A stretch of 44,129 nucleotides of DNA from an uncultured bacterium (GTDB lineage: Bacteria > Actinomycetota > Thermoleophilia > Solirubrobacterales > 70-9): positions 1 through 44,129 of the forward strand of contig CAIUSP010000075.1 of the NCBI GenBank assembly GCA_903901855.1, written 5' to 3'. This document shows, piece after piece, positions 31,369 through 36,019 of this stretch; position 1 is the first letter of the stretch; every line of letters starts with the position of its first letter. Made by a program: the position numbers and the translations under genes. Below the pieces are notes generated by a model. That model made no database searches, was not told the DNA's origin, and saw only the letters and a program-made list of their open reading frames with translations.

Positions 31369-33009
31369 CTACATCCGCTCCGGAGCGGAGATGCCGAGGA
31401 GCCCGAGAGTCGTTGCCAGCGTCTGACGCGTTACTCCGCAGAGCGCCAGGCGACTGGCCTCCACGCCGTCGCCCTCGGCACCGACTACCTGACAGTCTCG
31501 GTAGAAGGCGTGGAAATCAGCGGCCGTCGCCATCGCGTAAGCGCAGATGCGGTGTGGTGCTCGGCGCTCGGCAGCCTCCAAGACCTCTGCAGGCAGCTCG
31601 GCGATGCGCTTGATCAACTGACGCTCTGAGGGATCGACCCCGCCTTCGAACCCACCGGCATCGGGGGCGGCAGCCCCCTCCGCGGCGGCCTTGCGCAGGA
31701 TGCTCGAGATGCGTGCGTGGGCGTACTGGACGTAGTAGACCGGATTGTCGGATGAGGTCTGGCGAGCGAGATCGAGATCGAGATCGACCGTGGTGTCATT
31801 GCTTCGCTGGAGCATGAAGAAGCGGGTCGCGTCCGGACCGATGTCCTCGATCAGAGACTCCAGCGTCACGAACTCACCTTTGCGCTTCGACATCTGGGCC
31901 TTCTCACCGCCCTCGACCACGTTGACCAACTGCATGATCGAGATCTCCAGTCGATCGTCGCCGAAGCCCAGTGCCTCGACACTGGCTTTGATCCTGCTCA
32001 CGTAGCCGTGATGGTCGGCGCCGAGCACGTCGAAGAGCGTCGCTTCCGGATAGCGCTCGAGCTTGTCGCGGTGGTAGGCGACGTCGCCCAAGAAGTAGGT
32101 GGGCTCTCCCCCTGACCGCAACAGGACCCGGTCCTTGTCGTCACCGAACTCGGTGCTCCGGAGCCACGTGGCGCCCTCTTTCTCGTAGATGTGTCCGTGC
32201 TCGGCCAGATCATCGAGTGCCCGTTGCAGGGACCCGGCATCGTGGAGAGCCCGCTCAGATGACCAGTGGTCGAACTCGACTCCGAGGCCCGACAGGGTGT
32301 CCTTTATCCCGGAGACGATGATCTCCTCGCCGGCCAGCGAGAGGGCATTCGGGTCGTCGGCGCCCATTCCATCGGCGACCAGGCGCTCGGCGATCTCGAC
32401 CACATAGTCACCTTCGTATCCGTCCTCGGGCACGCCCTCTCCTTTCATCCGAGCAGCGATCGAGAGACCGAAGCGTTCCATCTGGGCGCCCATGTCGTTC
32501 ATGTAGTACTCGCGGATTGCCCGGGTACCGGTGAACTCCAGCAGTCGAGCGACCGCATCTCCGTACGAGGCGTGACGCCCCGCTGCAGCGGTCAGCGGCC
32601 CGGTGGGGTTGGCCGAGACGAACTCGATCAACAGCGTCCCACCAACACCCTGCGGCGGGCGACCGAGATCTTCACCTGCTGCCGCAAGCTCGGCAGCCGT
32701 CCCTCGGTACCAGGCGTCGGACATGAACAAGTTGAGGAAGCCGGGGCCGGCTATCTCGATCCTCTCGATCCGGTCGCTCAAGGTCTCGCTCAGCTTCGAG
32801 GCGAGTTCCTCGGCTATCTCACGGGGACTGCGATCGAGCACCGGGGCCAGCAGCATCGCGGCATTGGTCGAGTAGTCACCGAACTCGGCCTTGGGCGGAC
32901 GCTCGAGACTCGGGACACCGCCTCCCTCTAGAGAGCCTCCGCGGAGATCCTCCACGCAGGAGATCACTGCCGCGCGCAGCTCGGTTACCGGATCGACGGG
33001 ACCGCTCAC
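31369..33009 (-). CDS. argS: Arginyl-tRNA synthetase with altered HIGH motif
   Basis: A 546-residue class I synthetase charging tRNA-Arg. The N-terminal tRNA-binding domain (KAEFGDYSTNAAMLLAP), catalytic Rossmann core (FVSANPTGPL, EYYMNDMGAQ, LGDVAYHRDKLER, GADHHGYVSRIKAS), KMSKS-like loop MSKRKG (373-378), and DALR domain (YVQYAHARISSILR to the C-terminus) are all in place. The HIGH motif, normally HVGH right after PTGPL, reads Thr140-Ala-Ala-Ala143, so neither histidine is present. The reading is clean in the DNA (complement of 32581-32592), with the frame intact on both sides. Length is normal. I see no other sign of decay, so the gene is probably functional. Confidence 0.95.
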   Translation of the reverse strand: MSGPVDPVTELRAAVISCVEDLRGGSLEGGGVPSLERPPKAEFGDYSTNAAMLLAPVLDRSPREIAEELASKLSETLSDRIERIEIAGPGFLNLFMSDAWYRGTAAELAAAGEDLGRPPQGVGGTLLIEFVSANPTGPLTAAAGRHASYGDAVARLLEFTGTRAIREYYMNDMGAQMERFGLSIAARMKGEGVPEDGYEGDYVVEIAERLVADGMGADDPNALSLAGEEIIVSGIKDTLSGLGVEFDHWSSERALHDAGSLQRALDDLAEHGHIYEKEGATWLRSTEFGDDKDRVLLRSGGEPTYFLGDVAYHRDKLERYPEATLFDVLGADHHGYVSRIKASVEALGFGDDRLEISIMQLVNVVEGGEKAQMSKRKGEFVTLESLIEDIGPDATRFFMLQRSNDTTVDLDLDLARQTSSDNPVYYVQYAHARISSILRKAAAEGAAAPDAGGFEGGVDPSERQLIKRIAELPAEVLEAAERRAPHRICAYAMATAADFHAFYRDCQVVGAEGDGVEASRLALCGVTRQTLATTLGLLGISAPERM

Positions 33010-33060: not shown

Positions 33061-33477
33061 TCAGTAGTGATACGACTCGCCGGCGAGGATCTTGGTGGCC
33101 CGGAAGAGTTGTTCGAGAAGCACCGCGCGAGCCAACTGGTGGGCCATGGTCTGCGGACCGAGCGAAATGCGTTGATCGGCCCGGTCCAGAGCATCAGTCG
33201 CGAGTCCGTGAGGGCCTCCGATCAGAAAGCAGAGGTCGACTGCGGCCAACTTGCGAGAATCGAGCCACTCGGCCCACTGCTCAGATGACATGGCGGCGCC
33301 ATCGGCGCTCAGCGCAACGACATGAGCGCGTTCGGGTATGCGCGCAGCAAGGGATTCGTCGTCACGTACCTCGATCAACTCGACCGGCAACCTCCTGGAC
33401 AGCAGCTTCAGGTAGTGGGCGTCGGCTTCGGCGAACGGCATCTTGGCTTTGCCGACCGCGATCAACATCGTCCTCAC
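33061..33477 (-). CDS. rlmH: 23S rRNA (pseudouridine-1915-N3)-methyltransferase RlmH
   Basis: A 138-residue SPOUT-class methyltransferase that acts on helix 69 of 23S rRNA in assembled ribosomes. Motifs: MLIAVGKAK at the start, CFLIGGPHGL (the SAM-binding trefoil knot), ISLGPQTMAHQLARAVLLEQLFRA and the C-terminal SYHY, where the family ends in YH. The start is GTG 33477, which overlaps the upstream M48 protease stop as GTGA; an internal ATG (33468) is a less likely alternative. Length is normal. Confidence 0.95.
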   Translation of the reverse strand: MRTMLIAVGKAKMPFAEADAHYLKLLSRRLPVELIEVRDDESLAARIPERAHVVALSADGAAMSSEQWAEWLDSRKLAAVDLCFLIGGPHGLATDALDRADQRISLGPQTMAHQLARAVLLEQLFRATKILAGESYHY

Positions 33478-34808: not shown

Positions 34809-35552
34809 ATGCGCATCGCTGCGATTACGGACATACACGGCAATCTGCCCGCCCTAGAGGCGGTCCTTTCCGATATCGAGAAGGCTGAGATCGAGCGGAT
34901 CTGGTGTCTGGGTGACACCGTGGGGTATGGCGCCTTCCCGAACGAGTGCGTGAATCTCGTCCGTGAGAGGTGCGAGGTGAGCCTGGTTGGAAACCACGAC
35001 CTGGCCGTGACAGGTGAGATCGACACCGGACTCTTCTCCCCCTCGGCGGCGGAGGCGGTCAAGTGGACGCAAGGAGAGATAGGCAAGGAGGCGCTCGAAT
35101 TCCTTACCGGCCTCCAGCCCGAGACGACTCTCGACGAGGCGTCGCTCTACCACGCCTCGCCGAGAGATCCGGTTTGGGAGTACGTACTCGGAGGGGAACA
35201 GGCCGAGGCCTGCCTCGAGGTTCAGGCGCGACCCATCTCGCTGATCGGCCACTCCCACGTCGCGCTCTTCTTCTCGAACACGAGCGGAGAGAGCGCGGAT
35301 CTCGACGGCGGACAGTGTCCTGAAGGAACCGAGCACGGGGTCGACGAGGGCCGCTGGTTGCTCAATCCGGGGAGCGCAGGACAGCCACGCGACAACGACC
35401 CCAAGGCCGCATGGCTGGAGCTCGATCTCTCCGATGCCGGACGGGTGGCACGTTGGCGTAGATGCGAATACGACATCGATCGTGCGGCTCAGGCGATCAG
35501 GGACGCAGGACTTCCCGCGATGCTCGCAGAAAGGCTCTACTCAGGGCAATGA
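34809..35552 (+). CDS. Metallophosphoesterase (YfcE/diadenosine tetraphosphatase-like)
   Basis: A 247-residue calcineurin-like phosphoesterase. Metal-binding motifs in order: D-x-H in AITDIHGNL (about 5-13), GD in CLGDTVGYG, GNHD in LVGNHDLAV, H in YHASPRDP, and GHSH in LIGHSHVAL. NPGSAGQPRDNDP precedes the C-terminus, as in YfcE-type and ApaH-like proteins that hydrolyse phosphodiesters or dinucleotides. The substrate is not assignable. The start is ATG 34809; the upstream reading from 34749 lacks similarity to the family. Its stop overlaps the lipoprotein start as ATGA, so it heads an operon with the lipoprotein and kinase. Confidence 0.88.
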   Translation: MRIAAITDIHGNLPALEAVLSDIEKAEIERIWCLGDTVGYGAFPNECVNLVRERCEVSLVGNHDLAVTGEIDTGLFSPSAAEAVKWTQGEIGKEALEFLTGLQPETTLDEASLYHASPRDPVWEYVLGGEQAEACLEVQARPISLIGHSHVALFFSNTSGESADLDGGQCPEGTEHGVDEGRWLLNPGSAGQPRDNDPKAAWLELDLSDAGRVARWRRCEYDIDRAAQAIRDAGLPAMLAERLYSGQ

Positions 35553-36019
35553 ATTCCACGACTAGGATCAAGCGGATGTGGCGGCGAGTCCTCACAGGCG
35601 GTACGGGCATGGTGATTGCGATCGCCATCAGCGCCTGCGGCAGCAGCCCTAGCAACGGCCTGAATCAGACTGACTCGGACGTACTGCTCTCCGAGCTCGA
35701 CCAGATCCGATCCTTCCTCGCTGCCGGCAGTTGTATCTCTGCGGGATCTCACGCGCTCACCTTCCTCTCGGAGGTGCAGACTCTGCCGGCGGACACCGAC
35801 CCCGACCTGCGTCAGGCGCTCGAGAACGGCGCCCAAAATCTCACCGTGCTCCTGGACGACCCTGCGAACTGCAGCGCGCCTGCCCCCACCACGACCACCA
35901 CCCCGTCCACCACGACCACCACCCCGTCCACCACGACTACTCCTCCGCCCACGACCACGACTACACCGACCACTACCACCACTCCTGGGGGCGGGGGCAG
36001 TGGAGGGATCAGTCCCTAG
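35549..36019 (+). CDS. Predicted lipoprotein with Thr/Pro-rich tail
   Basis: A 156-residue exported lipoprotein. Basic N-terminus, hydrophobic core, and lipobox ISAC with lipidated Cys30 followed by GSSPSNG. Residues about 40-110 form a small acidic helical domain (SDVLLSELDQIRSFLAAGSCISAG), with two further Cys that may bond. About 112-148 is almost pure Thr/Pro in repeats, a probable cell-wall-spanning or O-glycosylated linker, ending in GGGGSGG. No known family. ATG 35549 overlaps the phosphoesterase stop and its own TAG abuts the kinase ATG, so the three are co-translated. This suggests it may be a partner or sensor for the kinase. Confidence 0.75.
   Translation: MNSTTRIKRMWRRVLTGGTGMVIAIAISACGSSPSNGLNQTDSDVLLSELDQIRSFLAAGSCISAGSHALTFLSEVQTLPADTDPDLRQALENGAQNLTVLLDDPANCSAPAPTTTTTPSTTTTTPSTTTTPPPTTTTTPTTTTTPGGGGSGGISP
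35889..35930 (+). repeat. Tandem 21-bp repeat encoding Thr/Pro linker
   Basis: Two exact tandem copies of a 21-base unit beginning CCACGACCACC (35889-35909, 35910-35930), then degenerate ACC/ACG repeats to about 35990. The unit is a multiple of three, so copy-number change would lengthen or shorten the lipoprotein linker without a frameshift. Confidence 0.85.

Follow-up and report, generated by a model that had tools for sequence, protein, structure and literature searches.

Arginyl-tRNA synthetases without the HIGH histidines in Thermoleophilia and a class of Bacillota keep the second KMSK lysine

Results

An arginyl-tRNA synthetase with TAAA in place of HIGH

A stretch of 44,129 nucleotides from an uncultured bacterium of the Solirubrobacterales (contig CAIUSP010000075.1, analysed whole and hereafter called the window) encodes an arginyl-tRNA synthetase (ArgRS, gene argS) in which TAAA replaces HIGH, the textbook-essential, defining signature of class I synthetases. 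Both histidines are gone, alanine stands where glycine is expected, and the reading frame is open. All the ArgRS without the first histidine that we aligned keep the second lysine of the KMSK loop (Lys2; Lys375 in the window enzyme). We put at about even the chance that these two residues are partly redundant in ArgRS and that the window's sole, active copy thereby manages without the HIGH histidine.

The replacement lies between NPTGPL and GRHASYGD (Table 1) and is confirmed by the codons, the alignments and an AlphaFold2 (AF2) model, in agreement with an earlier reading of the sequence alone (the sequence-only reading). The protein matches the NCBIfam argS model TIGR00456 (386.3 bits, for a cut-off of 261.65) and, above their cut-offs, the Pfam families Arg_tRNA_synt_N, tRNA-synt_1d and DALR_1, with the N-terminal, catalytic and DALR domains in the expected order. 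Alignment to PDB structures places TAAA at the HIGH position of the Campylobacter jejuni ArgRS 3fnr. The AF2 model (pLDDT 87.7, pTM 0.89) has a strand at residues 125-133, the NPTGPL loop and a helix at 141-159, with TAAA at the start of the helix, the usual place of HIGH. ArgRS structures rank first in a Foldseek search with this model, whose fold matches 3fnr and 2zue; the former, the nearest solved structure by sequence and fold, is also of the KMSK type but has a canonical HIGH.

The sequence-only reading had described all other ArgRS motifs as intact. This holds for DHHGY, the DALR domain and Lys375, but the KMSKS loop reads QMSKRKG, with glutamine for the first lysine. The enzyme thus lacks the H-x-G-H signature and has the second KMSK lysine. 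It has no lysine in the loop preceding HIGH, because Gly137 occupies that place (NPTG, not NPTK). Its Thr136 presumably matches, by position, Thr40 of tyrosyl-tRNA synthetase.

Loss of the HIGH histidine and loss of Lys2 do not coincide

We aligned 320 ArgRS, grouped by family code, and ran a pattern search over 299 genomes of Thermoleophilia. The first histidine is absent from 167 aligned sequences (called HIGH-less below), 157 of which have no histidine in the motif, and for this reason HIGH is not a defining feature of ArgRS. Lys2 is kept in 167 of these 167 enzymes, and both HIGH histidines are kept in all 37 ArgRS of the counted set that lack Lys2. Over 304 rows, 159 lack the first histidine and have Lys2, 37 lack Lys2 and have the first histidine, and 0 lack both (Fisher p 8e-14, kinship ignored). 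A crude Pagel-type comparison of dependent and independent models gives a likelihood ratio of 27.9 (p 1e-5).

The enzymes without Lys2 fall in several groups: MSTR forms in Thermodesulfobacteria, Desulfobacterales and a metagenome-assembled genome (MAG) of Synergistales, MSTR in family f8, MSRR in genus g55, and the KMSK-lacking ArgRS, most of which have a lysine in the HIGH loop. Family f8 (L124-L126, L128, L141, L142, L258-L261, L272-L277) combines NPNG-HVGH with MSTR throughout, so that Thr136 has become asparagine and Lys2 threonine together, with HIGH unaltered. The most telling cases are the contrasts within genus g55 and within the Bacillota class of genome G311 (reached from the MAGs L063, L068 and L077). 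Genus g55 lies inside an otherwise His-less clade. Lys2 is lost (MSRR) in 4 of its 5 HVAH enzymes (L175, L177, L179, L287, L288), against 0 of 6 with TVAS, TVAH, LVSH or PVSS, and no other single natural case tests the either-or rule as well as this HVAH set. In the Bacillota class, every KMSK-type copy with a readable motif is HIGH-less, whereas the KMSK-lacking copies (e.g., MSGRKG with NPNK) all retain HIGH.

HIGH is eroded over much of two classes

The sequence-only reading had called the HIGH histidines almost invariant. This did not survive the comparison: HIGH is lost or altered in much of Thermoleophilia and in the Bacillota class, and Actinomycetes (Mycobacterium, Blastococcus, Corynebacterium) have lost the second histidine alone (HIGG). 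The relatives of the window enzyme, in Solirubrobacterales and other Thermoleophilia (Actinomycetota), show how widespread TAAA-like states are: across most of the class the HIGH position reads TAAS, TAAG, TVAS, TVGS, VAAS, VVSA, LVSH, PVSS or HVGG. Relatives with 65% identity to the window enzyme have TAAG and dozens more have TAAS, TVAS or VAAS, which excludes chance and the assembly or reading error that the sequence-only reading had named as a refuting outcome.

Within the class, the window's family f1 has TAAS, TAAG, TVAS, TVAA, TTAS and TAAQ, with HVGG or HVGT in two genera. Family f2 has VAAS, TAAG and TVAH as well as HVGH and HVGG; f3 has TVAS plus one HIGH; f7 has TVAS, TVGS, TVAA, VVSA, LVSH, PVSS and some HVAH; and families f10, f11 and f12 have TVGS, TIGS, TVAT and VAAS. 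Families f5, f8 and f9 are canonical or have HAGH. A single genus, g55, mixes HVAH, TVAH, TVAS, LVSH and PVSS. The Bacillota class has other states (NVVN, NVVS, GVVN, VVVQ, IVVQ, LVVN and MIVN, among others), and a pattern search of this class found an altered motif in 56 of 154 genomes. Judging from the sequences, loss of HIGH in Thermoleophilia and in this class is independent. One Chloroflexota MAG has TVGN. A separate peculiarity concerns one ArgRS with TAAS (L027), which has DHGSH instead of the DHHGY found in almost all other enzymes.

In a maximum-likelihood tree of 76 rows, computed with the HIGH columns left out, the state of the first histidine changes at least 8 times. In the cheapest history, the histidine was lost once, at the root of the clade uniting Solirubrobacterales, f7 and f10-f12, and was regained several times. 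A grouping of the f1 threonine-type rows without the HVGG rows is disfavoured (approximately unbiased test, p-AU 0.017), and single groups of all His-less rows of the order (p-AU 7e-5) or of the class (p-AU 4e-54) are rejected. In windowed identity scans, neither L007 nor L175 looks clearly mosaic, and L212 has no more than a weak, local rise. The re-gained HIGH may stem from mutation or from recombination, which are not confidently separable and of which the latter is possible for L212.

The altered argS is the only copy

A Pfam search of the source genome (1.66 Mb, 92% complete) found no second argS; a second canonical copy was the other refuting outcome named by the sequence-only reading. 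A protein search gave one argS per genome among 60 relatives, save where contig ends or alignment pieces divide the gene. Seven genomes reached via other loci, all with altered motifs, have exactly one each. Among the remaining class I synthetases that PF00133 detected in the source genome, those with a readable motif retain it (HMGH, HVGH, HLGH, HIGN); one match (L230) has none that can be read in the available stretch. As far as tested, therefore, the erosion is seen in ArgRS alone. Being the cell's sole argS, the window copy should be active, and since it is both sole and conserved, it is presumably a working enzyme. This supports the sequence-only view of a remodelled HIGH site as a change belonging to the lineage.

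Some genomes depart from the single-copy pattern. Two argS copies or pieces occur in G405, G430 and G400 (Bacillota class), G221 and G374; in G405 and G430 a HIGH-less copy of the KMSK type seems to be accompanied by a divergent one. No argS was found by protein or TIGR00456 search in G145, G121 and G005 (83-93% complete), where it is probably absent from the assemblies only. In three genomes of the window's class (G210, G129, G232), argS was replaced, apparently by horizontal transfer, by an Escherichia coli-like, KMSK-lacking type with AKEMHVGH (L250, L251, L252).

Candidate compensating residues and alternative explanations

The rest of the active site is conserved in the HIGH-less enzymes: Lys375, Arg376, Asn134, Arg145, Asp332 and His333 are invariant or nearly so in all 167, with no exception for Asp332 and His333. 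A search over all alignment columns found no shared compensator co-varying with the first histidine. Position 377, an extra arginine or lysine after MSKR, seemed enriched but had no support in independent pairs, and the first KMSK lysine (position 372) shows no link to the loss of the first histidine. Thr136 is replaced by alanine or valine in 10 HIGH-less enzymes, including some of f7 and Bacillota (NPAG in L137, L264, L266 and L267; NPVG in L308, L310, L314 and L322), and its contact is therefore not strictly needed.

Could another residue take the role of the HIGH histidine in this lineage? The sequence-only reading had proposed His146 of GRHASYG, which is enriched in HIGH-less Solirubrobacterales (10/11 of the f2 VAAS enzymes, 5/5 in f3). 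The other candidate is threonine at the first position, which replaces the histidine more often than any other residue in the class and occurs naturally in the TIGN of tryptophanyl-tRNA synthetase (TrpRS; PMC10201369). We regard either substitution as quite unlikely. His146 is present in 41 of the 167 HIGH-less enzymes and missing in 126, including the close relatives L008, L011, L014 and L023, and also occurs beside a retained first histidine (HVGGGRH in L007). Its association across independent pairs is weak and not significant (3.6 vs 0.2 of 9 pairs, median p 0.125), and in the AF2 model it would lie away from the helix tip, six residues further along. As for threonine, 72 of the 167 have neither histidine nor threonine at the first position. 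An escape from inhibition is unlikely too, although we give it some weight: the HIGH residues, above all the adenine-packing glycine, would have been replaced under pressure of a natural product binding the ATP site, at a small catalytic cost. The mupirocin-resistant IleRS2 with G/AxHH is a precedent (PMC10485003), the third position is not glycine in 145 of the 167, and the states switch repeatedly. However, no ArgRS inhibitor or producer of this kind has been identified, losing both histidines exceeds what blocking an inhibitor needs, and the either-or pattern with Lys375 would be left unexplained.

That same pattern bears on near-neutral drift, in which the HIGH histidine would be of little weight in a tRNA-dependent, KMSK-type ArgRS and the link to Lys375 would be due to kinship. 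The many states coexisting in genus g55 and the dependence of ArgRS activation on tRNA (PMC7373986) are in line with it. Yet most other ArgRS keep HIGH, including those of Bacilli and of families f5, f8 and f9, and loss of Lys2 never accompanies loss of HIGH, even inside the HIGH-less clade, which makes such drift improbable. It is extremely improbable that this argS is a paralogue in decay or in a new role, with another enzyme charging tRNA-Arg: nothing beyond the motif itself speaks for it, neither the source genome nor near-complete relatives have a second argS, and all domains and other active-site residues are strongly conserved. The window protein is also no NrtL, an ArgS-related anticodon-binding protein, since it scores 134 bits with the NrtL model NF045898, for a cut-off of 340.

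A possible division of labour between HIGH and KMSK

Partial redundancy of the first HIGH histidine and Lys2 would account for the either-or pattern. In the activation step, Lys2 of KMSKS stabilises the phosphates of ATP at the transition state. The first histidine of HIGH also does so, and is credited with a rate gain of about a thousand-fold, while the HIGH glycine makes room for the adenine (PMC10485003, and work cited there). If both residues act on the phosphates during activation and their contacts are partly redundant, an enzyme retaining Lys2 could shed the HIGH histidines, and one without Lys2 would have to retain them. HIGH could then have drifted, with more than one change, in Thermoleophilia and separately in the Bacillota class. 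In the window enzyme, the work would be shared among Lys375 and Arg376 in the MSKR loop, Thr136 together with the main chain where the HIGH helix begins, and Asp332/His333. The tRNA, which ArgRS requires for amino acid activation anyway (PMC7373986), probably helps. A broader claim, for which we would give somewhat less than even odds, is that in ArgRS each of the two class I signatures can replace the other, whole bacterial classes doing without the HIGH histidine, some lineages re-acquiring it, and Lys2 being lost only where it is present.

Several points weigh against this interpretation. Lys2 was lost independently only a few times (in about four groups, with a minimum of 9 changes on the tree), mostly on ancestrally HIGH backgrounds, so that the Fisher p overstates the case; a correlation between histidine and Lys2 is in any event not a mechanism. 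The window enzyme has threonine at the first position, as in the TIGN of TrpRS, and this threonine might therefore carry part of the histidine's role. Our screens may have overlooked a compensation specific to a lineage. Finally, the activity of HIGH-less ArgRS is inferred, for the window enzyme from its being the only argS.

Comparison with known systems

The closest parallel is IleRS2 with G/AxHH, which confers up to 1000-fold mupirocin resistance at little catalytic cost (Brkic et al. 2023, PMC10485003) and has at least 2 origins and one reversion (PMC10485003). Like the ArgRS described here, it belongs to class I, is essential and carries a natural variant of HIGH, in which the first histidine and the glycine have changed, with more than one origin and at least one reversion. 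However, in IleRS2 a histidine has shifted its place inside the motif and assumes the role, and none remains in the window enzyme; a histidine at the third position, as in IleRS2, occurs in none of the listed HIGH-less ArgRS states (the window has alanine). The mupirocin hyper-resistance of IleRS2 also has no known counterpart in HIGH-less ArgRS. Bacterial TrpRS, such as that of E. coli, shows with its TIGN that threonine and asparagine can stand in (PMC10201369). The window enzyme shares the initial threonine and a motif without histidine, but TrpRS has glycine third and asparagine fourth where the window enzyme has alanine at both, and relatives of the latter start the motif with valine, leucine, glycine, asparagine or proline.

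Other ArgRS depart from the signatures in different ways. The actinomycete HIGG enzymes are of the KMSK type and, like the window enzyme, lack the second HIGH histidine, but they keep the first and the glycine. ArgRS without KMSK and with a lysine in the HIGH loop were reportedly described by Sekine and colleagues in 2001 (J Biol Chem 276:3723, cited in PMC8318970). Like the window enzyme, these have one degenerate class I signature out of two, but the two cases are mirror images: the KMSK-lacking enzymes (L250-L252, L327-L334) have no Lys2, keep HIGH and have a preceding lysine (NPNK, AKEMHVGH), whereas the window enzyme lacks HIGH, has Lys2 and NPTG, and does not belong to that type.

A literature search, which covered few subscription papers, found no paper on HIGH-less ArgRS. 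A naturally altered HIGH in a working synthetase is already known from IleRS2, but an ArgRS without any HIGH histidine appears to be new. HVGH, HVAH, TVAH, TVAS, TAAS, VAAS and VVVN form a natural series among sole, essential enzymes; it suggests that HIGH is dispensable in ArgRS and offers ready-made pairs of enzymes for kinetics. The either-or pattern makes directly testable the old question of how the two signatures share the stabilisation of the transition state. For annotation, a missing HIGH is no ground for calling a synthetase dead.

Table 1. The argS gene of the window, the motifs of its product and other genes judged by eye.
Feature	Position	Strand	Basis
argS, arginyl-tRNA synthetase, GTG start, 546 residues	31369..33009	-	Open reading frame, TIGR00456, Pfam domains, single copy
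HIGH-motif position, residues 140-143, TAAA (ACC GCT GCA GCG)	32581..32592	-	Translation and alignments
ANPTGPL loop preceding HIGH, residues 133-139	32593..32613	-	Translation and alignment
His146 of GRHASYG, not generally conserved	32572..32574	-	Column counts
KMSKS loop QMSKRKG, residues 372-378, including Lys375, the second KMSK lysine	31876..31896	-	Translation and alignments
GADHHGY motif, residues 330-336	32002..32022	-	Translation and alignment
DALR anticodon-binding domain, residues 427-546	31372..31731	-	Pfam PF05746, 114.6 bits
RlmH-like small protein, neighbour of argS	33061..33477	-	Translation, by eye
Protein with Thr/Pro-rich tail, ahead of the PknB-like kinase	35462..36019	+	By eye
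PknB-like serine/threonine kinase with C-terminal membrane segment	36020..37252	+	Translation, by eye
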